In this document: piece after piece, positions 1,425 through 14,954 of the stretch
Layout: each line of letters starts with the position of its first letter
How positions within the stretch are numbered: the first letter of the stretch is position 1
Assembly: GCF_026008515.1 (NCBI RefSeq)
Contig: NZ_BQYM01000018.1
Location: forward strand, 1-38,923
Direction of reading: 5' to 3'
Length of the DNA stretch: 38,923 nt
DNA from: Hoyosella levis
Lineage (GTDB): Bacteria; Actinomycetota; Actinomycetes; Mycobacteriales; Mycobacteriaceae
Position numbers and translations under genes: made by a program
Notes under the pieces: model-generated
Database searches by the model: none
What the model was told of the DNA's origin: nothing
The model's input: the letters and a program-made list of their open reading frames with translations, nothing else

Positions 1425-1491
1425 ATTTGCTAGCTAATGTCACCTTTCCCGTTTCGTGTCGCGGCGTGTCGCGTGACATTGGTCAGCAGAT
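1425..1491. repeat. 67-bp palindromic repeat, copy 1
   Basis: First of three copies of a 67-bp element. The outer arms are ATTTGCT and AGCAGAT (one G-T pair) and the inner arms ATGTCAC and GTGACAT. The core CGTGTCGCGGCGTGTCGCG is identical in all copies and is itself a direct duplication of CGTGTCGCG. It lies just beyond the stop codon of the minus-strand gene at 1523. It could be a bidirectional terminator, a REP/MITE-like element or a protein-binding site. Confidence 0.8.
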
Positions 1492-1522
1492 TTCGCGCGG
1501 GGCCAGGCAGCCCCCGGCCAGC

Positions 1523-2572
1523 TCACTGCGGCAGCGTTGCACGGCAGGGCGCTGGAGAGGGCCAGTCCCCCGGCCCCGGCGCGACCGGCCCCGTCCCAGG
1601 AACATGCTTCCACCACTGCATCGGCACGTTGCGAACCGGATTCCGCGCCAGCAGGCCGGCCATCCGCGCGCCGAGTGACTGCAGGTCCGTGGTGTGCGGG
1701 TATCCAAACCGCAGGAGGTCCAGGCCACACTCGTGCCGGAGGATCCACTCGCGCTCGGCCTGGCGCATGACAATGCTGTGCGCATCGGGGCGATCGTTGT
1801 ACTTCACGGCACCATCCGCCTCGATGGCCACCCAGTGATGTGGCCACAAGCCATCGACGCGAAACTTCGGATAGCCGGGGCCGACCCACGCGTTCGGCAC
1901 CAAGGCAGGCAGCCCGGCCTGGATGCTGGCGAACCTACCGAGGCTCTCGAGGGGCGACTCCGCGGCCGGCGATGCATGCGCGGCGATCCACCGGGCGCGC
2001 GCCGCCCCTTTCCACCCCGCTACGTGATTGGCCGGCTCTGTGAGATCCGCGCCACGCCGCACCGCCGCTTCGGCCACCATCAATGCCGTCGGCAACGGGG
2101 CTTGAAGGGCCACAGTGGTTGCCGCCATCCCCATGCTCACGACTCGTGCTTCCGCACGCACGCCGAGATAGTGGTCCGTCAACGTCGCCCGGCGCACCCG
2201 CGCCACGCTCGTGGACCATCCACCGGCACCGCCGCACGACGGTCCTATTGCCTCCAGATACGGAGGCGGGGAGCCGCGCGACGGCAATCCCCACATGGAC
2301 GCAGCCGACCATCCCGAGAGATGAAGCTGGCGTGGCGCATTGCGCGCGAACGCGGCCACGCACAGGGCGAACATCTCCCACGGCGGAAGTTGCTCCCCCA
2401 GTGCAGCATCGGCATACATCGTGGGCATGGGCCGAAGCAGCGTGCCTGATCCGACGAGCCGTCCAAGACGTTGCCTGCTGATACCGGATTCACGGGCCTC
2501 GGTTGTGTGGATGACGCCGCCGCGGCGGTGCAGGAGGTAGCGGATGTCCTCAGGAATGGCTGGCACGGGCAT
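1523..2572 (-). CDS. AbiEi-like N-terminal / DUF559-like nuclease-fold protein
   Basis: This 349-aa protein resembles actinobacterial proteins annotated as type IV toxin-antitoxin AbiEi-family antitoxin-domain proteins. The N-terminal 60 residues look like a winged helix (PEDIRYLLHRRGGVIHTTEA...GISRQRLGRLVGSGTLLRP). The C-terminal part resembles DUF559/Vsr-type PD-(D/E)XK nucleases, with candidate residues Glu209 (PLESLGR), Asp240 (FRVDGLW), Glu251 and Asp253 (AIEADG) and Lys257. No AbiEii-type toxin gene is next to it, so a toxin-antitoxin role is not supported here. It stands alone between add and deoA, splitting a cluster usually found together, and is bracketed by 67-bp repeat copies 1 and 2. 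Biological function is unknown. Confidence 0.75.
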   Translation of the reverse strand: MPVPAIPEDIRYLLHRRGGVIHTTEARESGISRQRLGRLVGSGTLLRPMPTMYADAALGEQLPPWEMFALCVAAFARNAPRQLHLSGWSAASMWGLPSRGSPPPYLEAIGPSCGGAGGWSTSVARVRRATLTDHYLGVRAEARVVSMGMAATTVALQAPLPTALMVAEAAVRRGADLTEPANHVAGWKGAARARWIAAHASPAAESPLESLGRFASIQAGLPALVPNAWVGPGYPKFRVDGLWPHHWVAIEADGAVKYNDRPDAHSIVMRQAEREWILRHECGLDLLRFGYPHTTDLQSLGARMAGLLARNPVRNVPMQWWKHVPGTGPVAPGPGDWPSPAPCRATLPQ

Positions 2573-2720
2573 ATCGTGCCGGTTCGCCGCGGTCCCGACG
2601 GGTTCCTAGCCGTGACCTGTGGATAGCTTGATTTCTATCCACAAGCAAGCGGGCACGGGCAGTTCATGCGCCAGGGCTGCCGAGCGCGCTAGACGTTGGC
2701 TCACCGAGCGCCACCAAAAG

Positions 2721-2787
2721 ATCTGCTAGCCGATGTCACGTTTCCGCTGCCGTGTCGCGGCGTGTCGCGAGACATTAGCTAGCAGAT
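2721..2787. repeat. 67-bp palindromic repeat, copy 2
   Basis: Second copy, with the best outer arms: ATCTGCTAGC (2721-2730) exactly matches the reverse complement of GCTAGCAGAT (2778-2787). The inner GTGACAT arm has become GAGACAT, weakening that stem. The 19-bp core is unchanged. It lies 3' of deoA, separated from the stop codon by a tandem repeat. Confidence 0.8.
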
Positions 2788-2800
2788 TTCGCGCGCCCCA

Positions 2801-2860
2801 CCCCAGCCTGCGACCCCCCAGCCTGCGACCCCCCAGCCCGCGACCACCCAGCCTGCGACC
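2801..2860. repeat. 15-bp tandem repeat, four copies
   Basis: Four consecutive units of about CCCCAGCCTGCGACC run from 2801 to 2860, with a partial fifth entering the deoA stop codon. The units differ by one or two bases. The stretch lies between 67-bp repeat copy 2 and the deoA 3' end. It is a likely variable-number locus. Confidence 0.8.
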
Positions 2861-2866
2861 ACCCAC

Positions 2867-4147
2867 CTAGGCGATGCGCTCGTGCACGAGCACCCGCCGT
2901 GGCGCGGATTCCCCGATGCTCCACGCGCCATCAAGCGCGGCAAGGGCGGCCGGGAATCGCTCGGGGGTATCGGTGTGCAGCGTGATGAGGGGTTGTCCGG
3001 CGGTGATGGTGTCGCCGACCTGTACGTGCCATTGGACACCAGCGGCGGCTTGCACGGGGTCGCCGAGCTTCTGCCGTCCGGCGCCAAGCCGCCAGGCCGC
3101 GATGCCTACCCCCATGGCGTCGAGGTGGGTGAGGATCCCGCTCTCGGGGGCGGTGATGGTCTCGGTCGCGCGGGCGGTGGGCAGCTCGGCATCGGGGTCG
3201 CCGCCCTGGGCCCGGATCATCTTCTTCCAGGTGTCCATGGCGCGGCCATCGGCGAGCGCGTCGGCGGGGTCGGTTCCGGTGATGCCTGCGGCGTCGAGCA
3301 TCTCGCGGGCGAGGGCGAGAGTGAGCTCGATGATGTCGGCCGGTCCCCCGCCCTCCAGGACCTCGACGGATTCGCGCACTTCGAGGGCATTTCCGGCCGT
3401 CAGGCCGAGGGGCGTGCTCATGTCGGTGAGCAGCGCGGAGGTGCGGACTCCGGAATCGTTGCCGAGGTCGACCATGGTGCGAGCGAGCTCCCGGGCATCG
3501 TCGAGGTTCTTCATGAACGCTCCGGCGCCGGCCTTGACGTCGAGGACGAGCGCGCTGGTCCCCTCGGCGATCTTCTTGCTCATGATGGAGCTGGCGATGA
3601 GCGCGATGGATTCGACGGTGCCGGTGACGTCGCGCAGCGCGTAGAGCTTCTTGTCGGCGGGGGCGAGGCCGCTTCCGGCGGCGCAGACCACGGCGCCGAC
3701 ATCGTTGAGCTGGGCCAGCATCTCGTCGTTGGACAAAGTTGCGCGCCAGCCGGCGATGGATTCGAGCTTGTCGAGGGTGCCGCCGGTGTGGCCGAGGCCG
3801 CGGCCGGAGAGCTGGGGCACGGCGGCGCCGCACGCGGCGACCAGCGGCGCGAGGGGCAGGGTGATCTTGTCGCCAACGCCACCGGTGGAGTGCTTGTCGA
3901 CGGTGGGCGTGCCAAGGTGCTTGAAGTCCATGCGCTCGCCGGAGTTGATCATGGCGTGGGTCCAGCGGGCGATCTCGGTGCGGTCCATGCCGCGCAGGAG
4001 GATGGCCATCGCGAGCGCGGACATCTGCTCGTCGTGGACGTCGCCGCGCGTGTAGGCGTCGATGATCCAGTCGATCTGCCCGCCGCTGAGGGCGTGGCCA
4101 TCGCGCTTGGCCCGGATGATGGTGACGGCGTCGTGGTGAGTGCTCAT
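2867..4147 (-). CDS. deoA: Thymidine phosphorylase
   Basis: Cytosolic enzyme that splits thymidine and deoxyuridine with phosphate into the base and deoxyribose-1-phosphate in pyrimidine salvage. The 426-aa length matches the family (about 430-440). Visible signatures are the N-terminal helical region with RGMDRTEIARWT, the glycine-rich phosphate-binding KHSTGGVGDK near residue 84, the SGRGLGHTGGTLDK loop, and the conserved MSKKIAEG and VLDVKAGAGAFM segments. Start ATG at 4147. Together with cdd immediately upstream it supplies substrate flow from cytidine to uridine and deoxyuridine. The order cdd-deoA-add next to sdh is the mycobacterial order. Confidence 0.95.
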   Translation of the reverse strand: MSTHHDAVTIIRAKRDGHALSGGQIDWIIDAYTRGDVHDEQMSALAMAILLRGMDRTEIARWTHAMINSGERMDFKHLGTPTVDKHSTGGVGDKITLPLAPLVAACGAAVPQLSGRGLGHTGGTLDKLESIAGWRATLSNDEMLAQLNDVGAVVCAAGSGLAPADKKLYALRDVTGTVESIALIASSIMSKKIAEGTSALVLDVKAGAGAFMKNLDDARELARTMVDLGNDSGVRTSALLTDMSTPLGLTAGNALEVRESVEVLEGGGPADIIELTLALAREMLDAAGITGTDPADALADGRAMDTWKKMIRAQGGDPDAELPTARATETITAPESGILTHLDAMGVGIAAWRLGAGRQKLGDPVQAAAGVQWHVQVGDTITAGQPLITLHTDTPERFPAALAALDGAWSIGESAPRRVLVHERIA

Positions 4148-4201
4148 GGCTGGCAGGTCCTTACTCTCGACAGGTCCGGAGGCGTGGCGGGCGGCTAGGG
4201 C

Positions 4202-4248
4202 TGGGGCTGCTGCGAATCTGGGGCTGCTCCGGCGATTCTGGGGCTGCT
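4202..4248. repeat. Three direct copies of TGGGGCTGCT
   Basis: TGGGGCTGCT occurs at 4202-4211, 4219-4228 and 4239-4248 in the 128-base gap between cdd and deoA. Spacing is irregular (17 and 20). No coding or clear regulatory role is visible. Confidence 0.5.
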
Positions 4249-4275
4249 GCGCCCGCCCAAGGGCCGGGGTGCGCG

Positions 4276-4680
4276 CTATTGCTGCCCGGCGGCGTAGTCC
4301 TCGGGACCGAAGGCGCGCGGGAGCAGCTCGCTGAGCGGGATGGGGCCGTCGGGGGCGCCAATGAGCATCGTGGGGCCGCCATGCTCATGGAGGAGCTGGC
4401 GGCAGCGTCCGCAGGGCATGAGGTACTCGCCCCGGCTGTCGACGCAGGCGAGGGCGGCGAGGCGTCCGCCGCCGGTGGTGTGGAGCTGGGAAACGACGCT
4501 GCACTCGGCGCAGAGGGTCAGTCCGAATGAGATGTTTTCCACATTGCAACCCGTGATGATCCTGCCGTCGGTTGTGCTAGCTGCAGCTCCGACGGGGAAT
4601 CGCGAGTAGGGGGCGTAGGCGTTGCGCATGGTTTCGATTGCTGCGCTACGCAGGGTTTTCCATTCGGCTACCATGGTCAT
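4276..4680 (-). CDS. cdd: Cytidine deaminase
   Basis: Cytosolic zinc enzyme converting cytidine and deoxycytidine to uridine and deoxyuridine. The 134-aa product is normal for the homotetrameric form. It has the PYSRFPVGAA substrate-binding segment, GCNVENISFGLTLCAE with the catalytic CAE (zinc Cys and proton-shuttle Glu) and the PCGRC pair of zinc cysteines. The frame is open upstream to 4752, but the family normally starts just before the EWKTLR segment. ATG at 4680 (MTMVAEW) is preferred, with ATG 4674 as the alternative. It diverges from sdhC and is probably the first gene of a cdd-deoA unit. Confidence 0.94.
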   Translation of the reverse strand: MTMVAEWKTLRSAAIETMRNAYAPYSRFPVGAAASTTDGRIITGCNVENISFGLTLCAECSVVSQLHTTGGGRLAALACVDSRGEYLMPCGRCRQLLHEHGGPTMLIGAPDGPIPLSELLPRAFGPEDYAAGQQ

Positions 4681-4951
4681 CACCGTGGTTTCGTGTCGGG
4701 TTTTCTGTTGGTGGGACAGGGTGGGCCACGGCCATGCAACTGAATATGGCAAGGCAACCCTAAATAATACCCGCAGGTCAAAACCTTATATCCGGCTGCA
4801 ACCCACGGAACTGGAAGGACTACAGTTCTCTGTGTCAGCTTAGGTTCACGCCGGACCTCTGTCGCGAAGCGCCCTGCTGACACCGACAACACAGGGACGC
4901 GCCTGACGGGACCTGCGGCGCCCACCGATGACACTGGAGGCAGAGCTCTCA
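4681..4951. promoter_or_regulatory. Divergent cdd / sdhC promoter region
   Basis: This 271-base region has an AT-rich centre (about 4740-4800) that is unusual for the window and should hold both promoters. TATGGCAAGGCAACCCTAA (4745-4763), read on the minus strand, matches the DtxR/IdeR consensus at about 13 of 19 positions, which is weak. CTTATAT near 4784 could be a -10 element for sdhC. A GGAGG at 4936-4940 precedes the sdhC ATG chosen at 4952. Confidence 0.4.
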
Positions 4952-5356
4952 ATGACCAGCACACAAGACGCCACTGGGCAGGTGGTGCGCACACGATCGA
5001 TATACCGGGGCGATCCCGGCATGTGGTCCTGGGTCCTGCATCGGATCACAGGCGTCACGCTCTTCTTCTTCTTGTTCGTGCACGTCCTCGATACCGCCCT
5101 CGTCCGGGTCAGCCCCGAGATGTATGACGCGGTCATCGAGACGTACAAGAACCCCATCGTCGGCACGCTCGAGCTCGGATTGCTCGGCGCCGTCGTCTAT
5201 CACGCGTTCAATGGCCTCCGCGTGATCCTTATCGACTTCTGGTCCAAGGGGCCGAAGTACCAGCGGATCATGTTCTGGATCGTGCTCGCCATCTCCGTCG
5301 CGATCATGATCCCCGCCTCTGGCCGCATCTTCTACTTGCTGTTCGGGAGCTTGTGA
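4952..5356 (+). CDS. sdhC: Succinate dehydrogenase cytochrome b556 subunit
   Basis: Membrane anchor subunit of respiratory complex II, helping bind heme and quinone. The 134-aa protein has three predicted membrane helices. They lie around ITGVTLFFFLFVHVLDTALV, the TLELGLLGAVVYHAFNGLRVILI segment and IMFWIVLAISVAIMI. The HRITG and YHAFNGLR motifs are typical of SdhC, and the histidine in LFVHVLD is a heme-ligand candidate. An ATG at 4928 is in frame, but ATG 4952 has GGAGG eleven bases upstream and is preferred. Its stop codon overlaps the sdhD start (TGATG), indicating translational coupling. Confidence 0.92.
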   Translation: MTSTQDATGQVVRTRSIYRGDPGMWSWVLHRITGVTLFFFLFVHVLDTALVRVSPEMYDAVIETYKNPIVGTLELGLLGAVVYHAFNGLRVILIDFWSKGPKYQRIMFWIVLAISVAIMIPASGRIFYLLFGSL

Positions 5357-5808
5357 TGACTTCTTCGGAGACCCCCGCCGCCAAGACCGTGGCCACGTCC
5401 TACGATCGCCCCGCCGCGTTGTCGCTGCCCCGCACCCCGCGGCGCAGCAACACCAACAACTTCGAGATGTGGGCATGGCTGTTCATGCGCATCTCCGGGC
5501 TGCTGCTGATCTTCCTGGTCATCGGCCATATCTCGATCATGCTGCTGCTCGACGACGGAGTGCACCGCATCAACTTCGCGTTCGTCGCTGGCCGCTGGGC
5601 GAGCCCGTTCTGGCAGTTCTGGGACTTGTCGATGCTGTGGCTCGCGCAGCTGCACGGCGGCAATGGCCTGCGCACCGTCATCAATGACTACGCGCGCAAG
5701 GACTCGACCCGCTTCTGGCTGCAGACGCTGCTAGCAATCTCGATCGTGCTCATCACCGTGCTGGGCACGTACGTAATCTTCACGTTCGACCCGAACATCA
5801 CAGGCTGA
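5356..5808 (+). CDS. sdhD: Succinate dehydrogenase membrane anchor subunit
   Basis: Second hydrophobic anchor of complex II (150 aa). It has three membrane helices: MRISGLLLIFLVIGHISIML, a central segment around WQFWDLSMLWLAQLHGGNGLRTV, and LLAISIVLITVLGTYVIF. GHISIM and LHGGNGLR are family-typical, with histidines available for heme and quinone. A GTG three bases upstream is in frame, but the ATG in the TGATG overlap with sdhC is the natural start. Eleven bases separate it from sdhA. Confidence 0.92.
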   Translation: MTSSETPAAKTVATSYDRPAALSLPRTPRRSNTNNFEMWAWLFMRISGLLLIFLVIGHISIMLLLDDGVHRINFAFVAGRWASPFWQFWDLSMLWLAQLHGGNGLRTVINDYARKDSTRFWLQTLLAISIVLITVLGTYVIFTFDPNITG

Positions 5809-5819
5809 GCGAGGCACAC

Positions 5820-7586
5820 ATGCAAGAACACCGTTACGACGTGATCATCGTCGGCGCTGGCGGAGCCGGAATGCGCGCCGCCATCGAGGCTGGTCCGCGC
5901 GCCCGCACCGCCGTGCTGACAAAGCTCTACCCCACCCGTTCGCATACCGGCGCGGCCCAGGGCGGCATGTGCGCCGCTCTGGCGAACGTCGAGGAGGACA
6001 ACTGGGAGTGGCACACCTTCGACACCGTCAAGGGTGGCGACTACCTCGTTGACCAGGACGCTGCGGAGATCATGGCCAAGGAGGCCATCGACGCGGTCCT
6101 CGACCTCGAGAAGATGGGCCTTCCGTTCAACCGCACGCCCGAGGGCAAGATCGACCAGCGGCGCTTCGGCGGCCACACCCGCGACCATGGCAAGGCGCCG
6201 GTCCGGCGTGCCTGCTACGCCGCGGACCGCACCGGCCACATGATCCTGCAGACCCTCTACCAGAACTGCGTCAAGCATGGCGTCGAGTTCTTCAACGAGT
6301 TCTATGTGCTCGATCTGTGCCTGAGCGAGACCGCCGAGGGCACCGTCGCCACCGGCGTGGTGGCCTACGAGCTCTCCACCGGCGAGATCCACGTCTTCCA
6401 CGCGAAGTCGATCGTGTTCGCCACGGGCGGCTCGGGCCGCATGTACAAGACCACCTCGAATGCCCACACCCTCACCGGTGACGGCATGGCGATCGTGCTC
6501 CGCAAGGGCCTGCCGCTCGAGGACATGGAGTTCCACCAGTTCCATCCGACAGGCCTCGCGGGGCTTGGCATCCTCATCTCCGAGGCGGTGCGCGGCGAGG
6601 GCGGCATCCTTCGCAACGCGGACGGCGAGCGCTTCATGGAGCGCTACGCGCCGACCATCAAGGACCTCGCCCCGCGCGACATCGTGGCCCGGTCCATGGT
6701 CCTCGAGGTCCTCGAGGGGCGCGGCGCAGGCCCGAACAAGGACTACGTCTACATCGACGTGACCCACCTCGGCGCGGATGTGCTCGAGGAGAAGCTGCCG
6801 GACATCACCGAGTTCTCCCGCACCTACCTCGGTGTGGACCCGGTGACGGAGCTCGTCCCCGTGTTCCCGACCTGCCACTACGTGATGGGCGGCATCCCCA
6901 CACTCGTCACCGGCGAGGTTCTCAAGGACAACGACACCGTCGTCAAGGGCCTCTACGCGGCCGGCGAGTGCGCATGCGTCTCGGTGCATGGCGCCAACCG
7001 CCTCGGCACCAACTCGCTGCTCGACATCAACGTGTTCGGCCGTCGCGCCGGCATCGCTGCTGCCGACTACGCCACCCAGTCGGAGCTCGTGCCACTGCCC
7101 GAGTCCCCCGAGGGCATGGTGCAGGAGTGGATGAAGCTCATGCTGTCCGATCGCGGCAATGAGCGCGTCGCCGATATCCGCATCGAGCTGCAGGCGACCA
7201 TGGACCGCAACGCCTCGGTCTTCCGCACCGAGGAGACCCTCAAGCAGGCGCTCGAGGATGTCCGCGTGCTCAAGGAGCGCTACAGCCGGGTCCAGGTGCA
7301 GGACAAGGGCAAGCGGTACAACAGTGATCTCCTCGAGGCCGTCGAGCTCGGGTTCCTGCTCGAGCTGGCCGAGGTCACCGTGGCCGGGGCGCTGAACCGG
7401 AAGGAGTCCCGCGGCGGGCACGCCCGCGAGGACTACCCCGACCGGGACGACACCAACTTCATGCGCCACACCATGGCCTACAAGCAGGTGCCGAAGGACA
7501 GCCGCGCGCCGCTGATCTCCGACATCACGCTGGACTACAAGCCAGTGACCTTCACCCGCTACGAGCCGATGGAGCGTAAGTACTGA
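5820..7586 (+). CDS. sdhA: Succinate dehydrogenase flavoprotein subunit
   Basis: Catalytic subunit oxidising succinate to fumarate on the cytoplasmic face of the membrane. The 588 aa show the N-terminal dinucleotide fold VIIVGAGGAGMRAA, the SHTGAAQGG segment whose His42 should carry covalent FAD, and RFGGHTRDHGKAPVRRACYAADRTG. They also show EFHQFHPTG, HYVMGGIPT and the NRLGTNSLLDINVFGRRAG substrate/flavin region. The C-terminus YEPMERKY is the one I recall from mycobacterial SdhA. The stop codon overlaps the sdhB start. All catalytic motifs are intact. Confidence 0.97.
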   Translation: MQEHRYDVIIVGAGGAGMRAAIEAGPRARTAVLTKLYPTRSHTGAAQGGMCAALANVEEDNWEWHTFDTVKGGDYLVDQDAAEIMAKEAIDAVLDLEKMGLPFNRTPEGKIDQRRFGGHTRDHGKAPVRRACYAADRTGHMILQTLYQNCVKHGVEFFNEFYVLDLCLSETAEGTVATGVVAYELSTGEIHVFHAKSIVFATGGSGRMYKTTSNAHTLTGDGMAIVLRKGLPLEDMEFHQFHPTGLAGLGILISEAVRGEGGILRNADGERFMERYAPTIKDLAPRDIVARSMVLEVLEGRGAGPNKDYVYIDVTHLGADVLEEKLPDITEFSRTYLGVDPVTELVPVFPTCHYVMGGIPTLVTGEVLKDNDTVVKGLYAAGECACVSVHGANRLGTNSLLDINVFGRRAGIAAADYATQSELVPLPESPEGMVQEWMKLMLSDRGNERVADIRIELQATMDRNASVFRTEETLKQALEDVRVLKERYSRVQVQDKGKRYNSDLLEAVELGFLLELAEVTVAGALNRKESRGGHAREDYPDRDDTNFMRHTMAYKQVPKDSRAPLISDITLDYKPVTFTRYEPMERKY

Positions 7587-8362
7587 TGACTGCCACCGTT
7601 TCCGCCGAGACAGGCCAGCGTCCACTTCCGCCGGTGCCCGAGGGCGCGACGATGGTCACGCTCAAGATCCGGCGCTTCAATCCGGAGGACCCGGACGCGC
7701 AGGGCTTCGAGGAGTTCGAGGTCCCAGCCCTGCCCTCCGACCGGCTGCTGAACCTGCTGCACTACGTCAAGTGGTACATCGATGGCTCGCTGACGTTCCG
7801 GCGCTCCTGCGCGCACGGCGTGTGCGGCTCCGATGCCATGCGCATCAACGGGGTCAACCGGCTCGCCTGCAAGATCCTCATGAAGGACATGCTGTCGAAG
7901 GACGGCAAGCCGATCACCGTGACGGTCGAGCCGATCCGCGGACTTCCCGTCGAGAAGGACCTCATTGTCGACATGGAGCCGTTCTTCGACGCGTTCCGTG
8001 CCGTCAAGCCGTTCCTCATCGCCAACGGCCAGGAGCCCACGCGCGAGCGCATCCAGTCCCAGGAGGACCGGGCTCGCTTCGACGACACCACCAAGTGCAT
8101 CCTGTGCGCCTGCTGCACCACCTCGTGCCCCGTGTTCTGGCACGACGGCTCGTACTTCGGGCCCGCGGCGATCGTCAACGCGCACCGGTTCATCTTCGAC
8201 AGCCGCGATGAGGGTGCTGCCGAGCGGCTCGAGATCCTCAACGACATGGACGGCGTGTGGCGCTGCCGCACCACCTTCAACTGCACCGAGTCCTGCCCTC
8301 GCGGCATCCAGGTGACGAAGGCGATCCAAGAGGTCAAGCGGGCACTCTTGTTCGCGCGCTGA
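7586..8362 (+). CDS. sdhB: Succinate dehydrogenase iron-sulfur subunit
   Basis: Electron-transfer subunit of complex II (258 aa) carrying three iron-sulfur centres. The 2Fe-2S ligands lie in the RRSCAHGVCGSDAM segment and the Cys of NRLACKIL. The 4Fe-4S and 3Fe-4S ligands lie in CILCACCTTSCPVFW and CTESCPRG. It starts in a TGATG overlap with sdhA and is the last gene of the operon, closed 15 bases later by a strong terminator. Confidence 0.96.
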   Translation: MTATVSAETGQRPLPPVPEGATMVTLKIRRFNPEDPDAQGFEEFEVPALPSDRLLNLLHYVKWYIDGSLTFRRSCAHGVCGSDAMRINGVNRLACKILMKDMLSKDGKPITVTVEPIRGLPVEKDLIVDMEPFFDAFRAVKPFLIANGQEPTRERIQSQEDRARFDDTTKCILCACCTTSCPVFWHDGSYFGPAAIVNAHRFIFDSRDEGAAERLEILNDMDGVWRCRTTFNCTESCPRGIQVTKAIQEVKRALLFAR

Positions 8363-8376
8363 CCAGCGAATGCATT

Positions 8377-8410
8377 AAGAGGGGCACCCCGCGCCAGGGG
8401 TGCCCCTCTT
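8377..8410 (+). terminator. Rho-independent terminator of sdhCDAB
   Basis: AAGAGGGGCACCCC (8377-8390) pairs perfectly with GGGGTGCCCCTCTT (8397-8410) around a six-base loop: a 14-bp stem followed by a short T-rich run. It starts 15 bases after the sdhB stop. Confidence 0.9.
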
Positions 8411-8518
8411 TGCTTGCTCGGGACACCCTGCGCCACCAGCGCATGGACCGCCGCGACCACCGGGGCGCGGTAGGCTGGTAACTGGGCAGCCGCCTCGCTC
8501 GAACCAAGGGAGACCCCG

Positions 8519-8680
8519 ATGTCTGATCACGTCCTCCACCATCACGAGCCGCCGAACGATGACCTTGCCATGCGCGCCACCAACATCGTGGCCTCGCACA
8601 GCGAGAGCGCGAAGGAATGCCGCGAGTTCCTCGACATGCTCGGTCTCGACACCACCCCTCCCCCGGCTCCCGCGAGCTGA
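8519..8680 (+). CDS. Small 53-aa protein of unknown function
   Basis: ATG at 8519 is preceded by AAGGGAGA with good spacing, and the frame runs to TGA at 8678. The product begins MSDHVLHHHEPPNDDLAM and is histidine- and acid-rich at the N-terminus. A helical middle follows (IVASHSESAKECREFLDML) with one cysteine, then a Pro-rich tail. It sits alone between the sdh terminator and the convergent hydrolase gene. Codon use has the strong third-position G/C of its neighbours. I do not recognise a family. The HHH cluster plus Cys might bind metal, but that is speculation. Confidence 0.7.
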   Translation: MSDHVLHHHEPPNDDLAMRATNIVASHSESAKECREFLDMLGLDTTPPPAPAS

Positions 8681-8717
8681 GGCCTGCGCTCTCGAGTTCC
8701 AGCATCCAGCAGCGCTA

Positions 8718-8737
8718 TCGCTAGCACGTGCTAGCGA
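8718..8737. terminator. Perfect 20-bp palindrome between convergent genes
   Basis: TCGCTAGCACGTGCTAGCGA is its own reverse complement. It lies 37 bases after the 53-aa gene and 4 bases before the stop of the convergent hydrolase. This fits a bidirectional terminator or a dimer-binding site; with no loop, a binding site or cruciform is equally possible. Confidence 0.55.
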
Positions 8738-8741
8738 AGGA

Positions 8742-9296
8742 TCACCGCACCGTCGATGCGAGCACCTCGACCAGCGCTTCGGGCATCTCGCCCTCCAGGA
8801 AGTGACCGCCACCCGGCACACTGATGTCCCGGGCCCCAAGAGCCTTGGCGAGCTGCACGGATAGCTCCGGCGGAACAATCTCGTCATCGTCGGAGTGAAT
8901 AACCGCGGCATGACGGATGCGCGCACCCAGCGGTGCCGCATCCATGCCCGCTCCGATGAATCCATCGAGCTCGGGCACCCCGGGAAGCTTCTCCACGAAG
9001 CCCGCGACCAGCACGAGCCCACCAAGGCCCTGCGCGCCACCGCGACCCCACTGGCTAGCGAGGAAGCGCAGCAGCGCAAGGCATCCCAGGCTGTGCCCGA
9101 TCAGCACGGTGGCCTCGTCGACGGGGCCGATGGCTTGCGCTATTGCCGCATCCCATTCGCCGCGATCCGGCTCGTTCGGCCGGGGAAGCTCCACCCGATG
9201 CACGTCGTGGCCTCGAGCTGCCAGCTCGTCCTCGAGCCAGGGAAACCAATGCTTGCCCGTATGGGCGCTATAGCCGTGCACGATGATCGCGCGCAA
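8742..9296 (-). CDS. Small alpha/beta-hydrolase, RBBP9/YdeN-like
   Basis: Probable cytosolic serine hydrolase of 184 aa, the size of the RBBP9/YdeN group. The catalytic triad is readable: Ser in LIGHSLGCLALLRF, Asp in IHSDDDEIVP and His in GGGHFLEGE. The N-terminal AIIVHGYSAHTGKHWFPWLE supplies the oxyanion region. The start is TTG at 9296, supported by AAGGAG six bases upstream. It follows the Nudix gene by 34 bases on the same strand, so the two are likely co-transcribed. Substrate unknown. Confidence 0.85.
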   Translation of the reverse strand: MRAIIVHGYSAHTGKHWFPWLEDELAARGHDVHRVELPRPNEPDRGEWDAAIAQAIGPVDEATVLIGHSLGCLALLRFLASQWGRGGAQGLGGLVLVAGFVEKLPGVPELDGFIGAGMDAAPLGARIRHAAVIHSDDDEIVPPELSVQLAKALGARDISVPGGGHFLEGEMPEALVEVLASTVR

Positions 9297-9330
9297 CGCG
9301 GTCTCCTTGCTGCACTGGAGGCCTGGTGGC

Positions 9331-9771
9331 CTAGGGGCGTACCTGGCCGATGCTCAGGGGGCGCCGGAGCTCGGGGAGGATCCTCTCCGCGAGCAAGGGT
9401 GCCAGGGAAATACTGCCATGGTCGCCGTAGAGATCGAGCCAGTGGATCTCCTCGATCTCGCCGCTCGGCGCGACAGCCTGGCTGGCGCCTGGCGCAGCGA
9501 GGTCAGTGACGTAGACGGTGGCGTCGACCCGGCGGTCCTGCTCGTTGGCCGCGGGGGCGGTCCATCTGCCGAGGAACCTCAGCGAGGCAGGGCCCAGGTG
9601 CACGGCGACCTCCTCGCGGCACTCGCGGATCGCTGCGGCGTGGATGGACTCCCCCGGCTCGGGCTTGCCCCCGGGCAGCATGAAGCGCTGTGTCCCCGCT
9701 TTGCGGACGAGCAGGATGCGCTTCCCCTCGTGGAGGATGCACACCGCTGCCACGGTGATCGGTCGATTCAC
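9331..9771 (-). CDS. Nudix hydrolase
   Basis: A 146-aa single-domain Nudix enzyme that should cleave a nucleoside-diphosphate-linked substrate. The Nudix box is complete: GGKPEPGES then IRECREEV, giving the metal-binding REUxEE pattern. The N-terminus ITVAAVCILHEGKRILLVRKAG is typical of the family. It starts with GTG at 9771, with AGGAA eight bases upstream. Probably the first gene of a pair with the downstream hydrolase. The substrate cannot be inferred. Confidence 0.9.
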   Translation of the reverse strand: MNRPITVAAVCILHEGKRILLVRKAGTQRFMLPGGKPEPGESIHAAAIRECREEVAVHLGPASLRFLGRWTAPAANEQDRRVDATVYVTDLAAPGASQAVAPSGEIEEIHWLDLYGDHGSISLAPLLAERILPELRRPLSIGQVRP

Positions 9772-10016
9772 GTATCGGGTTCCTGTCGTGGTGTGTGCAC
9801 TCGAGGAGTCGCGTCGAGGTCAGGACGCCCTCGGCCAGGCTACCGCCTGCCAGTCACTAGGGGCTTCACGACGACGGGAAGTGCGATCAACGCAACACGC
9901 TGTGGTCACAGTCGGCTAACCAGTGGAAGCCAAGGCATGCATGATGCCCCCGCATGATCCAAGATCGTGATGACACTATTCAAGCTGTCCTCATTCCCTA
10001 TCGTGCTAGGAGCCCC

Positions 10017-10223
10017 ATGCGTCCCCGGACTGCGAACCGGATCACCCGAGTCGCGTTGCTTGTCGCGGTCCTGAACCTCGGACTCGCCGGCACTGTCGCC
10101 TACGCCCTCGATACCAAGGCAGTCACTTCGAGCACGACCAGTGTCATCGATGTGGCGCCCGCGGGCTCCCAGGGCACCGACGGCACCGCCGGCACGTGCG
10201 CGGTCGTGCCGTTCGGACGGTAG
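10017..10223 (+). CDS. Small membrane-anchored or secreted protein
   Basis: A 68-aa product. ATG at 10017 has AGGAG four bases upstream; the frame is open further upstream to 9954 without a better site. Basic N-terminus MRPRTANRITR, then the hydrophobic stretch VALLVAVLNLGLAGTVAYAL, which could be a signal peptide or an anchor. A short Ser/Thr/Gly-rich tail with one cysteine follows. No family recognised. A 14-bp tandem repeat begins at its stop codon. Confidence 0.65.
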   Translation: MRPRTANRITRVALLVAVLNLGLAGTVAYALDTKAVTSSTTSVIDVAPAGSQGTDGTAGTCAVVPFGR

Positions 10224-10275
10224 GCCCCGAGCGGTAGGCCCCTAGCAGTAGGCCACGAGCAGGAGGCCACGAGCA
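10220..10275. repeat. 14-bp tandem repeat, four copies
   Basis: Four consecutive 14-bp units of the type GTAGGCCACGAGCA start at the stop codon of the preceding small gene and end two bases before the 41-bp hairpin at 10278. Units differ at one to three positions. Confidence 0.8.
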
Positions 10276-10277
10276 GC

Positions 10278-10318
10278 AGTGGAAACTTTTCCCGCCCCGA
10301 GGAGGAAAAGTTTCCACT
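10278..10318. repeat. 41-bp hairpin repeat, copy A
   Basis: AGTGGAAACTTTTCC (10278-10292) pairs perfectly with GGAAAAGTTTCCACT (10304-10318) around an 11-base loop. A second 41-bp copy is at 21603. This copy lies between two convergent genes and could be a bidirectional terminator. Confidence 0.85.
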
Positions 10319-10363
10319 ACCAGTGCCGCACGACGATGCAGCCGTTCGCCCTCGCTGCGCCGC

Positions 10364-11836
10364 TCAGTGCGCGGCGACGGGCGTGCCCTGCTGCGCGGGG
10401 AGCGGACCTGGCCGGAACAGGGTGACGGCGACGATGGCTCCCACGGCGAAGATCCCGGCGCCCCACGCGAAGGCTGCGGTGTAGCTCTCCATGGCGGCCT
10501 GGAGCGGGCCGCCGGTGCCGCCTCCCGCGAGGTAGTCCGAGGCCGCGGTCGCGGCAATGGTGCTCAGCAGCGCGGTACCGATCGAGCCGCCCACTTGCTG
10601 CATGGTGTTCATGGTGGCGGACGCGATGCCGGCATCAGCGGGCGCGACCCCGGAGACGGCGCTCTGGATGGATGAGGCGAAGATCGCGCCCATGCCGAGT
10701 CCCATGATCACCAGCGACGGGAGGATGTGGGCGAGATAGCTGCTCCCGGTCTCGATCTGGGTGAGCCAGGCGAGGCCGAGCGCGCCGAGCACCATGCCGG
10801 TGGTGACGAGGGGCCGCGGACCGTGCTTGGGCAGCAGGACGGCGTTGATGACGATCGAGGAGATCATGATCATCATGACCATGGGCAGGAACGCGAACCC
10901 GGTGCGGATGGGCGAGTAGCCCATGGTCACCTGCAGGTAGTACGTGAGGAACAGGAACACGGCGAACATGCCGCTGCCGGCAAGGAACATCGATAGGAAC
11001 GCGGCGCCGCGGGTGCGGTCGAGGATGATCTTCAGCGGTAGCAGGGGATGCTCGACCCGGCTCTGGAGGTAGACGAACGCCGCGAGAAGGACGACACCGG
11101 CGACGATCCACGCCAGGGTGGACGTGGCGGTCCAGCCGTTGTGCTCGGCGCTGGAGAACCCAAACACGATGGCGAACAGCGCGACCGAGCCGACGACGGT
11201 GCCGGGGATGTCCAGTCGGGGCCGGGTGGTCGAGCGCTGGGGGTCGAGCAGGATGGCTGCGCCAATGAGGGCTACGCCGGCGAAGAACACGTTGACAAGC
11301 AGCGTCCAGCGCCAGTCCGCCCATTCGGTGAGGACGCCACCGAGCAGGAGCCCGACACCCGCTCCGGATCCCGCGATGGCACCAAAGATGCCAAATGCCT
11401 TGGCGCGTTCCTTGGGGTCGGTGAAGGTGGTGGTGAGCAGGGCGAGGGCGGTGGGGGCAAGCAGCGCTCCGAAGATGCCCTGTCCGGCGCGGGCGGCGAC
11501 AAGGATCTCGAAGCTCGGAGCGAGCCCGCCGACAGCGGATGCCGCGGCGAAGCCCACGAGGCCGGTGAGGAAGGTAATGCGGCGCCCGAAGAGGTCGGAG
11601 AGGCGTCCACCGAGCAGGAGCAGGCTGCCGAAGGTGAGGGCGTAGGCGATGATCACCCATTGCCGGTCGGAGTCGGTGAACCCGAGGTCCGCCTGGGCGG
11701 CAGGGAGGGCGATGTTCACGATGGTGGCGTCGAGCACCACCATGAGCTGGGCGATGCCGAGGACGGCGAGGACGAGCCAGCGGCGGTCGCGCTGGGTGCC
11801 GGCGCCGGGGCTGGCGAGGGGCGTGGTGGTGGTCAT
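10364..11836 (-). CDS. MFS multidrug exporter, DHA2 (14-helix) family
   Basis: Proton-driven drug efflux pump of the EmrB/QacA type, about 490 aa with 14 hydrophobic segments. Helix 1 carries LMVVLDATIVNIALP, the DHA2-typical motif D1. Motif A is GGRLSDLFGRRITF, and the motif C-like region is GSGAGVGLLLGGVLTEW. ATG 11836 (MTTTTPLASPG) is chosen. An in-frame ATG at 11914 would lie inside a regulator operator with no room for a ribosome site, though a leaderless start there is possible. It diverges from the TetR gene, which should repress it. Confidence 0.9.
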   Translation of the reverse strand: MTTTTPLASPGAGTQRDRRWLVLAVLGIAQLMVVLDATIVNIALPAAQADLGFTDSDRQWVIIAYALTFGSLLLLGGRLSDLFGRRITFLTGLVGFAAASAVGGLAPSFEILVAARAGQGIFGALLAPTALALLTTTFTDPKERAKAFGIFGAIAGSGAGVGLLLGGVLTEWADWRWTLLVNVFFAGVALIGAAILLDPQRSTTRPRLDIPGTVVGSVALFAIVFGFSSAEHNGWTATSTLAWIVAGVVLLAAFVYLQSRVEHPLLPLKIILDRTRGAAFLSMFLAGSGMFAVFLFLTYYLQVTMGYSPIRTGFAFLPMVMMIMISSIVINAVLLPKHGPRPLVTTGMVLGALGLAWLTQIETGSSYLAHILPSLVIMGLGMGAIFASSIQSAVSGVAPADAGIASATMNTMQQVGGSIGTALLSTIAATAASDYLAGGGTGGPLQAAMESYTAAFAWGAGIFAVGAIVAVTLFRPGPLPAQQGTPVAAH

Positions 11837-11899
11837 GGGGGTCGGCTCTGCTTCCGTGCTGGCGGGCTTGTACTGGTGCGGCTTTGCAGTATCTTTACT

Positions 11900-11963
11900 A
11901 AGTGGAGTTTCCATCTCCGCTTCTCACAACTTATGATCGTAAGCGGAGATTCCCCCTCCGAAT
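11900..11963. promoter_or_regulatory. Double TetR operator between exporter and regulator
   Basis: Two 23-bp dyads share one design: AAGTGGAG-N7-CTCCGCTT (11900-11922) and AAGCGGAG-N7-CTCCGAAT (11941-11963). Their starts are 41 bp apart, about four helical turns. They fill the gap between the divergent MFS and TetR genes, so binding could block both promoters. Confidence 0.75.
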
Positions 11964-11984
11964 AGATCCGTGAGGTGAATCACA

Positions 11985-12665
11985 ATGACCGACGCCACCC
12001 CTGCCCCCACGACGAGCCCCCCGTTGCGCGCCGACGCCGAGCGCAACCGGCAACGCATCATCGAGACCGCCCGCGAGCTCTACGCCACCCAGGGGCTCGC
12101 TATCACCCTCGACGAGGTGGCTCGCGCCGCCGGTGTCGGCGTCGGCACCATCTACCGGCGATTCGCCAACAAGCACGAGCTCATCGAGGCACTGTTCGAG
12201 CTCAGCCTCACCAATCTCGCCGAGGCCGCCGAGCACGCGCTGGGAAACCCCGACCCCTGGGACGGCTACAGGCAGCTCGCCGAGCACGCCTGCCAGCGCC
12301 TCGCCGTCGACCGCGGCCTATCCGAAGTGGTCATCGGTCGCGAGAACGACCGCGAGCGCATCTCCCATGCCGCCGAACGCATGCGCACCTCGTTCGCGGC
12401 GGTGTTCGACCGCGCGCACGACGCTGGCGCGCTCAGGCCGGACGCCACGCTCTCCGACCTCTTCGCCACCATCCATATGGTGGCCAACTTCGCGAGCTTC
12501 TCGGGCCCCGTCGCGCCCGACGCGTGGCGCCGCTACCTGGCGTTGTTCCTCGACAGCCTGCGCGGCGACCGCGAGCACCTGCCACTGCCTGCCGACAGCC
12601 TCACCCCCGAGCAGGTCAGCCGCGCCAAGCAACTCCTGCAGCAGCGGCACGCGCCACCCGCATGA
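11985..12665 (+). CDS. TetR-family repressor of the adjacent exporter
   Basis: A 226-aa regulator. The helix-turn-helix lies at about residues 42-66 (LDEVARAAGVGVGTIYRRF). The C-terminal ligand-binding part is variable. A GAGGTG site precedes the ATG. The gene diverges from the DHA2 exporter over two palindromic operators, the classic arrangement for ligand-relieved repression. The inducer is unknown. It ends 30 bases from the convergent GCS2-type ligase. Confidence 0.9.
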   Translation: MTDATPAPTTSPPLRADAERNRQRIIETARELYATQGLAITLDEVARAAGVGVGTIYRRFANKHELIEALFELSLTNLAEAAEHALGNPDPWDGYRQLAEHACQRLAVDRGLSEVVIGRENDRERISHAAERMRTSFAAVFDRAHDAGALRPDATLSDLFATIHMVANFASFSGPVAPDAWRRYLALFLDSLRGDREHLPLPADSLTPEQVSRAKQLLQQRHAPPA

Positions 12666-12695
12666 CCCCCGCTGGTGCCAGCAGCAGGGCAACCG

Positions 12696-14192
12696 CTACC
12701 AGGGCCAGGTGTGCACGGGATCGCCCGCGCGCATCAGCTCCGCGTACTCGGCGAGCATGCGGGGCAACGCCTCCTGCCGCGTCATCCCCGATTTCTCGAG
12801 CCGTGCCACCATCCCGCGCTGCCACCCCGCGCCGTTGCGTCGCTGCAAGCACCGCTCCTCGATGATCGACAGGTACCGGTCGCGCACCCCAGCCGCCACG
12901 CCATAGTCGGACAGGCCCTGGTCCGCTAGCGGCAACAACCAGCGCAGCGCCAGCTCATCGGGCCCCACCTCGCCGCACGACGGCCAGTACAGGCGCGCAT
13001 CCATGCCATGACGGGCGGCCCTCTCCAGGTTGGTCGCTGCCGCATCGAACGACATCTGCGTCCACGCGGGACGGTCGGCATGGGCGAGCGCATGAACCAC
13101 GCCGTAGTAGAAGGCGGCATTCGCCATCGTGTCGATCACCGTTGGCCCGCCCGGCAGCACGCGGTTCTCCACCCGGATCTGCGGCGTCCCCTCGACGACG
13201 GCGTAGACCGGGCGATTCCACCGGTAGATCGTGCCGTTGTGCATCGACAGCTCCGCGAGCGACGGCGTCTCCCCCGCATCGAGCCGGGCAAGCGGCTCCT
13301 CCTCGGTGGCCTCCGGCAGCAGCGCCGGGAAGTAGCGAGCGTTCTCATCGAAGAGATCGAAGATCGACGTGATCCACCGCTCCCCGAACCACACCCGCGG
13401 TCGCACGCCCTGGTTCTTCAGCTCCAGCGAGCGCGTATCGATGGCTTGCTCGAAGACGGGGATCCGGCTCTCGTGCCACAACGCCGTCTGCGCGAGGAAT
13501 GGCGAGTTCGCGCCCAGCGCCACCTGCACCCCCGCCACGCACTGCGCGGCATTCCAGTGCGCCGCGAACATATCCGGATCCACCGCGAGGTGCAGCTGCA
13601 CCGAGGTGCAGGCCGCCTCGGGCAGCACCGAGGTGCAATCTATGCGCAACCGCTCGGCATCACCATCGAGGCCCGTGCCGCTGATATCGATCTCGATATC
13701 CTCGCCCCGTGCCGCGAAGATCTGATCATTGAGCAGCGCATAGCGCGGGTTGTCGGTGATCCATGCGGCATCGAAATGCTCGGTGCGCAGCGTCGGCAGC
13801 ATCCCCGTGAGCACCACGCGAGCGCCATTGCGCGACGCGACGTCGTCCGCGTGCTCCAGCGACCGGCGCAGTCCTAGCTCCACCTCGCGGATCGACTCCC
13901 CCGCCAGCGGCGCGGGCGCCACGTTCAGCTCGATATTGAACCGGCCCAGCTCGGTCTGGTAGTCATTGTCCGCGATCGCGGCGAGCACCTCATCGTTCGC
14001 CTTCGCCGGCTCCATCGCGTCATCGACAAGATTGAGCTCCACCTCCATGCCCAGCAGCGGCACGGCGCGGTGGCTATCGAACGCGCCATCGTGGAGCATC
14101 CGCTCGAGCGCCTCGGTGCATTCATGCACCTTGCGGCGGAACAAGCGCCGATCCTCGTGGGTGAACCGGATCGCCGTGACTTCCGCGCCCAT
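12696..14192 (-). CDS. GCS2-family glutamate-cysteine-ligase-like enzyme
   Basis: This 498-aa protein resembles carboxylate-amine ligases of the GCS2 family (Pfam PF04107), which join the gamma-carboxyl of glutamate to an amine or to cysteine using ATP. GMEVELN at residues 48-54 is the conserved metal/ATP glutamate strand. TELGRFNIELN and the ENRVLPGGPTVIDTMANAAF segment are further family features. Actinobacteria use such enzymes for ergothioneine (EgtA) or unknown products; here there is no egtB-E neighbour, so EgtA is not claimed. GAGGAAAGG precedes the ATG. It diverges from the peroxiredoxin, a loose redox link. Confidence 0.8.
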   Translation of the reverse strand: MGAEVTAIRFTHEDRRLFRRKVHECTEALERMLHDGAFDSHRAVPLLGMEVELNLVDDAMEPAKANDEVLAAIADNDYQTELGRFNIELNVAPAPLAGESIREVELGLRRSLEHADDVASRNGARVVLTGMLPTLRTEHFDAAWITDNPRYALLNDQIFAARGEDIEIDISGTGLDGDAERLRIDCTSVLPEAACTSVQLHLAVDPDMFAAHWNAAQCVAGVQVALGANSPFLAQTALWHESRIPVFEQAIDTRSLELKNQGVRPRVWFGERWITSIFDLFDENARYFPALLPEATEEEPLARLDAGETPSLAELSMHNGTIYRWNRPVYAVVEGTPQIRVENRVLPGGPTVIDTMANAAFYYGVVHALAHADRPAWTQMSFDAAATNLERAARHGMDARLYWPSCGEVGPDELALRWLLPLADQGLSDYGVAAGVRDRYLSIIEERCLQRRNGAGWQRGMVARLEKSGMTRQEALPRMLAEYAELMRAGDPVHTWPW

Positions 14193-14306
14193 CGCCGCCG
14201 CCTTTCCTCGATGACCGGTGGTACCGACGATAGTGGCCAGGCGCTCTCCGCACGGCCATACCGGTCAGGCGTTCCCGCTCGCGCTGAAGTTCACGGCGAG
14301 CGCCGG

Positions 14307-14312
14307 TAACCT
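14307..14312 (+). promoter_or_regulatory. -10 element for a leaderless peroxiredoxin mRNA
   Basis: TAACCT fits TANNNT and stands seven bases before the GTG at 14320, while no Shine-Dalgarno is present. This is the usual geometry for a leaderless actinobacterial transcript starting at the initiation codon. Confidence 0.45.
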
Positions 14313-14319
14313 CAGCCGT

Positions 14320-14778
14320 GTGAACACTGGAGACAAAGCCCCCGACTTCGCCCTTCCCGACCAGTTCGGGACCGTCCGCTCCCTCGACGAGCTCCTCGCC
14401 GACGGGCCGATCGTGCTCTTCTTCTACCCTGCCGCGAACACCCCCGTCTGCACGGCGCAGGCGTGCCATTTCCGCGACCTCTCGGCTGACTTCGCTGCCG
14501 CTGGAGCAGCTCGCGTCGGCATCAGTACCGACGACATGCAGACCCAGGCGGGCTTCGCCACTGCGCAGGAGATCGACTACCCGCTGCTCTCGGATTCCGA
14601 CGGCACGATTGCCGCCCGGTTCGGCGTCAAGCGCGGCCTCCTTGGTCGGCTCGCGCCCGTCAAGCGCAAGACTTTCGTCATCGACACCGACCGCACGATC
14701 CTCGGTGTCATCTCCAGCGAGTTCAAGGCGAACGCTCACGCCGACGAAGCCCTCGAGATCCTCGCCAACCGCTCCTGA
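14320..14778 (+). CDS. Peroxiredoxin, Bcp/AhpC-TSA family
   Basis: Thiol peroxidase of 152 aa that reduces hydrogen peroxide and organic peroxides. The peroxidatic cysteine is Cys44 in FFYPAANTPVCTAQAC. Cys49 five residues later fits the resolving cysteine of Bcp-type atypical 2-Cys enzymes. GVISSEFKANAHADEAL closes the fold. The frame is open upstream to 14218, but family alignment places the start at the GTG of VNTGDKAPDF. BcpB-like; the exact orthology is not certain. Confidence 0.88.
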   Translation: MNTGDKAPDFALPDQFGTVRSLDELLADGPIVLFFYPAANTPVCTAQACHFRDLSADFAAAGAARVGISTDDMQTQAGFATAQEIDYPLLSDSDGTIAARFGVKRGLLGRLAPVKRKTFVIDTDRTILGVISSEFKANAHADEALEILANRS

Positions 14779-14887
14779 ACCACGCGGATGGGACGCCACC
14801 AGCACCACATGATGGCGCCCCATCCGCGGTGGTCGCGCGGGCATCGGCGCTCGGCCGGTCCCGTGGCGCTCCCCTCCCCCCCCCCGG

Positions 14888-14954
14888 ATCTGCTAGCTGA
14901 TGTCACGTTCTCGCAGCCGTGTCGCGGCGTGTCGCGTGACATTGACCAGCAGAT
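14888..14954. repeat. 67-bp palindromic repeat, copy 3
   Basis: Third copy. Outer arms are ATCTGCT and AGCAGAT; the inner arms ATGTCACG and CGTGACAT pair perfectly over 8 bp, and the 19-bp core is identical to the other copies. It lies between the convergent ends of the peroxiredoxin and the acyl-CoA ligase. A run of ten C (14876-14885) adjoins it on the left and CAGACC-type repeats lie to its right. Confidence 0.8.

Follow-up and report, generated by a model that had tools for sequence, protein, structure and literature searches.

A clade-specific family of 67-bp palindromes in Hoyosella flanks a putative AbiEi-type nuclease gene that may recognise it

A nuclease-type gene between two copies of a 67-bp element

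Contig NZ_BQYM01000018.1 (C18) of the 3.61-Mb draft genome of Hoyosella levis (NCBI RefSeq assembly GCF_026008515.1; here G000) was analyzed over its full length of 38,923 nucleotides, referred to below as the window. Its plus strand carries three copies of a 67-bp palindromic element, at 1425..1491 (copy 1), 2721..2787 (copy 2) and 14888..14954 (copy 3). The gene between copies 1 and 2, at 1523..2572 on the minus strand, encodes a protein of 349 amino acids with an AbiEi-type winged helix-turn-helix (wHTH) and a putative Vsr/DUF559-like nuclease domain. An earlier note, made from the letters of the window alone, had reported three exact 67-bp copies sharing an invariant, duplicated 19-bp core, and this is borne out; the gene, overlooked there, is the key to the element.

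Copy 1 lies 31 bp 3' of the nuclease stop codon and copy 2 lies 148 bp 5' of its start, so that element, gene and element form a complete unit of 1363 bp (1425..2787). The unit sits between a deoA-like pyrimidine-nucleoside phosphorylase gene (2867..4147, minus strand; PF00591, PF07831, PF02885), 79 bp past whose stop codon copy 2 is found, and the adenosine deaminase gene add (190..1236, minus strand; PF00962). Copy 3 is solo, in a gap between convergent genes. A 15-bp tandem repeat, CCCCAGCCTGCGACC, occupies 2801-2860, directly after copy 2 and ahead of the deoA stop. Genes were called with our own codon-based script, which gives rough starts, including that of add, and which missed or miscalled the nuclease gene, recovered through open reading frames (ORFs) and tblastn. 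Copy 1 is also 188 bp 5' of the called add start; it falls within the longest ATG extension of the add ORF, which is probably too long; the Pfam domain begins at residue 80.

Three other members of the genus, G020, G046 and G061, were compared. In G020 (L100) and G046 (L109) a unit of copy, gene and copy occupies the equivalent place, with 80% protein identity. In G061 the unit is absent, 47 bp separating the edges that align to deoA and add, and the three nuclease hits of that genome lie elsewhere. The nuclease gene is under purifying selection, with a ratio of nonsynonymous to synonymous change (dN/dS) of 0.17-0.21. No AbiEii nucleotidyltransferase toxin was found beside the window gene, whose neighbors are add and deoA, with orthologs likewise in G020 and G046.

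The AbiEi_4 winged helix covers residues 9-48 (Pfam, 1.7e-6), and PADLOC AbiEi matches begin at E 3.5e-5 with the window protein, the strongest being a relative at locus L187 (2.4e-19). The nuclease assignment comes from profile comparison. A profile of the window protein and its paralogs aligns to one of DUF559-type relatives across columns 16-311 (hhalign probability 99.1, E 9e-19). In Pfam these relatives hit MTES_1575 and DUF559, several of them with scores under the curated cut-off; one also hits Vsr, at 0.003. Compared with structures, the relatives' profile finds 3hrl (endonuclease-like) at 1.3e-6 and 3r3p ("Mobile intron protein") at 1e-3, with Vsr itself weak at 0.095-0.28. Searches with the window nuclease found nothing in plasmids at E 1e-8, in phages at 1e-5 or in viral contigs; copy 3 has no match in plasmids or phages, the exact element pattern none in viral contigs, and the L187 nuclease none in phages.

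Anatomy and distribution of the element

In copy 1 the core, at 1455..1473 on the plus strand, contains two CGTGTCGCG as a direct repeat, with TGTCGCG starts 10 bp apart; the form CGTGTCGCG-G-CGTGTCGCG is invariant across the three window copies. At three or fewer mismatches the core is found four times in the window, all but one of these being the copies; 0.22 would be expected, and none of 100 shuffles reaches four, so its occurrence there is not due to chance. Two inverted arms each follow the motif ATCTGCTRGYYRATGTCACG and vary independently within it. The matched arms of the earlier note are present in all three copies, though not letter for letter: the outer left arm of copy 1 reads ATTTGCT, and copy 2 has GAGACAT, not GTGACAT. 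The spacer is constant in length at 10 or 11 nt and free in sequence. The terminal inverted repeats are about 20 bp, and the element has no coding capacity.

With a sequence-only model trained on 25 copies, G000 yields 26 full copies, all at E 2.1e-14 or better, and the family's own profile (>40 bits) finds 59 in three genomes: 26 in G000, 17 in G020 and 16 in G046. The three window copies are therefore a small part of a larger family, conserved in two related species. G061, the fourth genome of the genus, has zero copies, its best match being partial at E 0.07. Among 61 genomes sampled from the GTDB family, six reach E 0.01, namely the three carriers and three others with partial matches (E 7e-4 to 0.0096) that we take as chance. 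Across 394 genomes of the class only G000 is tallied at E 1e-6, in a search with strict filters and 12 candidates scored per genome; the other carriers were evidently not drawn in that sample. The family, designated A here, is real and clade-specific.

The fixed length described earlier holds for the window and is relaxed genome-wide, at 67 bp in 46 of the 59 copies and 68 bp in 13. On inspection, 44 copies start with ATCTGC and 40 finish with GCAGAT, a purine precedes 42 and a pyrimidine follows 57, and none of the 59 shows a GTAG or CGTC end tag of the type known from repetitive extragenic palindromic (REP) sequences.

All 59 copies lie outside called genes: 31 are in convergent gaps, 23 in tandem gaps and five in divergent gaps, so that 54 of 59 are convergent or tandem. 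Of the 26 copies in G000, 12 are convergent, 12 tandem and two divergent. By comparison, convergent gaps make up 44 of 337 copy-free gaps and 8% of nearby intergenic bases (binomial p 4e-5 and 3e-7), a background drawn, like the control genes used below, from the neighborhoods of copies only. Orthologous copies are not independent in such counts, and some same-gap copies of two species could be separate insertions. The earlier statement that copies lie at gene 3' ends thus describes the three in the window, but copies 1 and 2 are also 5' of genes, and five of the 59 copies are in divergent gaps. Within tandem gaps the orientation is mixed, 15 copies running against the genes and eight with them, which makes a strand-specific RNA unlikely.

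Constraint without arm pairing

Orthologous copies (40 pairs in 20 groups) agree at 702/760 core positions (92%), at 689/800 and 637/720 arm positions (86% and 88%) and at 278/405 spacer positions (69%), against 47% and 51% in the 60-bp left and right flanks of the same pairs. Synonymous differences in the nuclease gene between the same species amount to 0.41-0.44 per site. By both measures the arms and core are held well above the neutral yardstick; the 67-bp element is under constraint. Among paralogous pairs the core is 88% identical, the arms 80% and 78%, and the spacer 36%; this divergence indicates that spacers are not being homogenized from copy to copy, unlike the outcome of wholesale gene conversion.

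The constraint does not appear to act through base pairing. The earlier note held that changes in the arms often keep pairing. Over 59 copies, however, arm complementarity is 0.785 within copies and 0.792 between copies, and with one copy per place 0.769 against 0.786. In the 25-copy alignment 85.6% of arm cells pair, a share reached in 417 of 500 shuffles. Position 10, one of the 20 in the arm, leans toward covariation (z 2.2). Arm covariation was not found in family A (59 copies) or in two further palindrome families described below, D (30) and E (15). Selection for a hairpin is therefore unsupported, and that earlier claim is not confirmed. A known RNA family was also considered as a candidate and set aside, with zero Rfam matches above gathering score in the window and no covariation.

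Each arm likely behaves as a double-stranded protein site, and the inverted arms together with two TGTCGCG boxes 10 bp apart would be the anatomy of a multi-part site of that kind. Between the options left by the earlier note, a mobile or structural element or a protein site, the protein site is best supported, because arms and core are conserved, spacer length is kept, spacer sequence is free and covariation is absent. The copies are dispersed, intergenic and conserved as that note supposed, with a REP-like distribution and an associated nuclease-type gene; a paired structure is the part that finds no support.

Many other nuclease loci lie between palindromes

Fourteen nuclease places in the four genus genomes came from a protein search, and nine loci outside the genus are the best places of the records hit in a plasmid collection. 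L187 (G020), which holds a DUF559/AbiEi_4 gene, was picked because it is situated between two 41-bp palindromes of family D. The same palindrome occurs on both sides at 10 of the 14 genus places; one more is one-sided with a contig end opposite, and three (L160, L163/L169 and L165) have no pair, L160 and L169 carrying a palindrome at one side. Five of the nine plasmid-collection loci are paired, one has a weak one-sided match and three have none. Including L187, 16 of the 24 nuclease loci have the same palindrome on both sides, a total that mixes automatic, BLAST and by-eye evidence.

A single automatic rule with equal margins of 360 bp returns 8 of 24 nuclease genes, their bounds partly hand-set, against 1 of 282 other genes; at 260 bp it returns 7 of 24 against 1 of 287. 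The single positive control gene neighbors the L168 nuclease. A palindrome on at least one side is found for 17 of 24 nuclease genes and for 98 of 282 controls, which come from copy-rich neighborhoods. Because one-sided palindromes are so common among controls, the informative criterion is the two-sided one in which both palindromes are alike.

The palindromes differ from lineage to lineage. Family B nucleases have palindromes of about 66 bp, ATCTGCGAG...CTCGCAGAT, on both sides in G046 and G020, while in G000 one side is a contig end. The closest relative in G061 (family C, L155/L170) has its own pair, which has ATCTGC..GCAGAT ends and weak pairing and forms a direct repeat of 77 nt at 74% identity. 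Family E, made up of remote relatives present in G000, G020 and G046, has paired 53-59 bp palindromes, AGTGTGCGAAAA.., and remote relatives in G061 (family F) have 60-bp palindrome pairs plus a third copy. Outside the genus, pairs flank the Arthrobacter loci L190, L195 and L194 (the L194 match being 83% inverted or 74% direct) and the Tsukamurella loci L191 and L192; the match at L196 is weak and one-sided, and there is none at L188, L193 or L189, the last being a short hit from a gammaproteobacterium.

Similarity of sites follows similarity of enzymes to some extent. Family B and C nucleases are 45-47% identical to that of family A, and the palindromes of the three families are related, with ATCTGC ends and GTCA in the inner arm; the model for A detects copies of B, at E 4e-4. 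The palindromes around more distant nucleases are unlike those of family A.

These palindromes also occur away from nucleases. Four flanking palindromes from Arthrobacter and Tsukamurella were searched for further copies, and all recur. That of L192 has 20 BLAST places in eight Tsukamurella records (both strands, flanking pair included), and its best places in the seven other records are five gaps between convergent genes (L197-L200, L202) and two tandem gaps (L201, L203), the L201 copy overlapping an annotated gene start by 4 bp. The L191 palindrome has 11 places in nine Tsukamurella records, and in Arthrobacter that of L195 has 11 in two records and that of L190 eight in one (flanking copies included). 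Selected stretches of the genus contain 12 distinct places of family B, 31 of D and 18 of E, with flanking ones counted and none within called genes; the stretches were picked on other grounds, so that these counts are not densities. Most nuclease lineages examined are thus shown to have their own flanking palindrome, with further copies elsewhere in the same organisms.

Family D, AGTGGAAACTTTTCC..GGAAAAGTTTCCACT, is a second dispersed family, with 41-bp copies in the window at 10278..10318 (a convergent gap) and 21603..21643 (a divergent gap), neither assigned a strand. Arm matches at no more than one mismatch number 76 in G000, 108 in G020, 76 in G046 and 0 in G061. As predictors of nucleases, 41-bp pairs were tried and rejected: only L187 of 12 fetched loci holds one, so that pairs alone predict little.

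Several further observations concern these families. One equivalent convergent gap holds a family A element in G000 (L086) and a family D palindrome in G020 and G046 (L126, L131). A family B palindrome lies about 45-50 bp from a family A copy at L090:3904-4089 and L107:3970-4146, and in G046 (L135:2894-2959) family B alone was found. The family B nucleases of G000 (L156) and G020 (L157) differ by 0.08 at synonymous sites, against 0.36-0.38 to G046, which suggests recent transfer between the G000 and G020 species. Partial family E matches lie near both ends of the window (76-107 and 38818-38846), and the ends share a 34-nt inverted repeat at 74% (40-73 and 38851-38884); the contig may have been broken at repeats located there.

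Gain or loss of copies

Copies are gained or lost between species, and blocks bounded by two copies in one species have one copy in another. In G020 and G046 a block of about 3.6 kb, one gene of which matches RgpF, lies between two direct copies (L104:4047-7787, L120:4007-7606), and the G000 counterpart, L075:3992-4064, has one copy without the block. The two copies flanking the block are alike within each species, as if converted. At L080:8619-10177 tandem-duplicated DUF3558 genes each have a 67-bp copy before them, and in G046 (L112) a DUF3558-like gene follows a copy. The flank similarity of the paired copies in L080 and L104 reaches beyond 67 bp. Genes between paired copies, considered as cassette cargo, have no function in common, and that idea was dropped.

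The target-site duplications and the REP-associated Y1 transposase that the earlier note proposed to look for did not emerge. No duplication was seen by eye in the flanks of the 59 copies or at aligned empty sites, a test weakened by the fast divergence of flanks. A single Y1 (IS200-type) transposase gene is present in G000 (L151:1501-1863; C10:134728), and the copy closest to it on that contig is about 36 kb away; the carriers G020 and G046 have none at E 0.001 (PF01797), so that one of the four genus genomes has one, in a search limited to this transposase family. Half-sites at zero or one mismatch, looked for as traces of a parent insertion sequence, all fall inside known copies in the draft assemblies of G000 and G046, with one exception outside known copies in G020 and one in G061.

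A proposed nuclease-site system

That copies stand on either side of the nuclease gene in three species, and that the arrangement recurs with other palindromes, makes it fairly probable that the 67-mer is the putative cognate double-stranded site of the 1523..2572 nuclease, with site, nuclease and site as the complete unit and the other copies mostly solo sites. Each nuclease would recognize its own palindrome, the protein binding as a multimer to the two inverted arms and to the two TGTCGCG boxes, which are in phase. By nicking or cutting a solo site, the nuclease could provoke repair from a complete unit that copies the gene in, a homing-like step that would leave two whole sites around the gene; recombination between two direct sites would remove the gene and leave a solo. 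Copies may persist mainly in convergent gaps because they do the least harm there, and the constraint on solo sites might mean either that the protein still needs them or that the host uses the bound sites. The gained or lost copies and the two-copy and one-copy blocks fit this account of homing and collapse, in which no intermediate has been seen.

Several observations weigh against it. Constraint on solo sites is foremost among what a purely selfish model fails to predict. A homing gene should normally split the site that it recognizes, and both flanking 67-bp sites are whole. Gained copies bear 20-60 bp of unshared flank with no visible target-site duplication. Eight of the 24 loci lack a demonstrated two-sided pair, and at four of them (L165, L188, L189, L193) no palindrome was seen at all. 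The window gene, L100 and L170 fail the automatic rule, because one or both copies fall under the pairing threshold, and are counted by sequence comparison. L160 speaks against a strict tie between enzyme and site: its nuclease shares 48% identity with the window protein, and its palindrome is a different one and on one side only. The L191 palindrome lies under annotated genes at three of nine listed places. As to the enzyme, the window protein matches AbiEi_4 alone in Pfam, searching PDB at E 1 with a profile for families A, B and C gave no hit, and a single-sequence AlphaFold model of the window protein (mean predicted local distance difference test score 40) was too poor and was not used.

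Four other explanations were weighed against the same evidence. Sites of host chromosome architecture, comparable to bacterial interspersed mosaic elements with gyrase or to matS, would be bound by a host protein, with the nuclease gene merely landing there. Strong constraint at orthologous places, the convergent-gap bias and the fixed spacing, with boxes 10 bp apart, are what such sites would show. The restriction to three species, with no copies in the congener G061, and the presence of other palindrome families in the same role beside other nucleases, in Tsukamurella and Arthrobacter as well, make this explanation unlikely. We regard as improbable a miniature inverted-repeat transposable element (MITE) or REP-type element moved by another transposase, with the nuclease as passenger: terminal inverted repeats, dispersal and presence or absence between species would be accounted for, but no parent insertion sequence is seen in these draft genomes, where nearly all half-sites belong to known copies, no target-site duplication is visible, Y1, the transposase family searched, occurs in one of the four genus genomes, and the other nuclease lineages carry palindromes of their own.

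Bidirectional transcription terminators or RNA hairpins at gene 3' ends would suit the 31 copies between convergent genes and arms that could form a hairpin. We consider them quite improbable: besides the lack of covariation in families A, D and E and the copies in divergent gaps, the T-run from the last element base reaches 4 in a single copy and is at most 3 in the other 58; at L091 the gene ahead of the copy already ends in a classical stem with a T-run, which G046, lacking the copy, retains; and pairs around nuclease genes would be unexplained. Attachment sites of an integron-like cassette system with site-specific recombination are hardly credible, since, although direct copies flank accessory genes that vary between species, such as the 3.6-kb block, copies are mostly single, the genes between pairs are functionally unrelated, and the two-copy blocks are explicable by ordinary recombination or duplication, given the extended flank similarity at L080 and L104.

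Relation to known systems

The closest parallel to the proposed nuclease-site system is that of REP sequences and their hairpin-forming doublets (REPINs) with REP-associated tyrosine transposases (RAYTs), together called REPtrons. Passages of two papers (PMC3733652, PMC3116915) describe these as dispersed intergenic palindromes, often 3' of or between convergent ORFs, with RAYT genes flanked by palindromes and, in species with several families, repeat-specific genes. The 67-bp family is likewise dispersed between genes, with its own nuclease-type gene flanked by copies. Here, however, the partner is an AbiEi-wHTH/Vsr-like protein, not a Y1/HUH transposase, and no Y1 gene is beside copies; RAYT elements are hairpins, whereas the present arms lack covariation and double-stranded recognition is likely; and the flanking copies are mostly in direct orientation, with elements of 41-69 bp.

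Vsr-like homing endonucleases are similar to the relatives in nuclease-domain profile (the 3r3p match given above) and in the association of a stand-alone gene with a long site. We take 3r3p to represent the I-Bth0305I/EDxHD family; I-Bth0305I is a homing enzyme. The present system differs in its unsplit site, with two whole sites flanking the gene, in its N-terminal AbiEi domain and in its many solos per genome. AbiEi, the antitoxin of a type IV toxin-antitoxin system, binds inverted repeats, and the N-terminal AbiEi_4 domain and PADLOC matches recall it; the window gene differs in having no toxin partner, a fused nuclease domain by profile and sites dispersed genome-wide. MITEs are similarly short and noncoding, with terminal inverted repeats and presence or absence in relatives; for the 67-bp element, however, no parent transposon and no target-site duplication were seen, and it is strongly constrained in place. 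The nuclease domain of the more distant relatives, several below the Pfam cut-off, resembles MTES_1575_REase/DUF559. MTES_1575_REase is named a novel Vsr-REase in passages of PMC3710099, which make no mention of flanking or dispersed palindromes. Titles and the starts of abstracts of open-licence papers gave no link of DUF559, AbiEi or Vsr-like genes to dispersed palindromes. We rate the nuclease-palindrome system as new by enzyme and site, though REP-like in its working.

A broader proposal, about as likely as not, is that these loci represent an unrecognized class of actinobacterial elements. AbiEi-wHTH/Vsr-like nucleases would be matched with lineage-specific long palindromes, as complete units and as solo families that settle in convergent gaps and become constrained, the nuclease copying itself into solos and recombination restoring them. 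If true, the orphan AbiEi/DUF559 proteins of Actinomycetota would acquire both a target and a life cycle, there would be an explanation for palindromes dispersed in bacteria that lack a RAYT transposase, and an independent class of enzyme would have reached a REP-like way of life. The nuclease-palindrome pairs are ready for direct tests of binding and cleavage, and the pattern as a whole suggests an unrecognized selfish or site-keeping DNA system.

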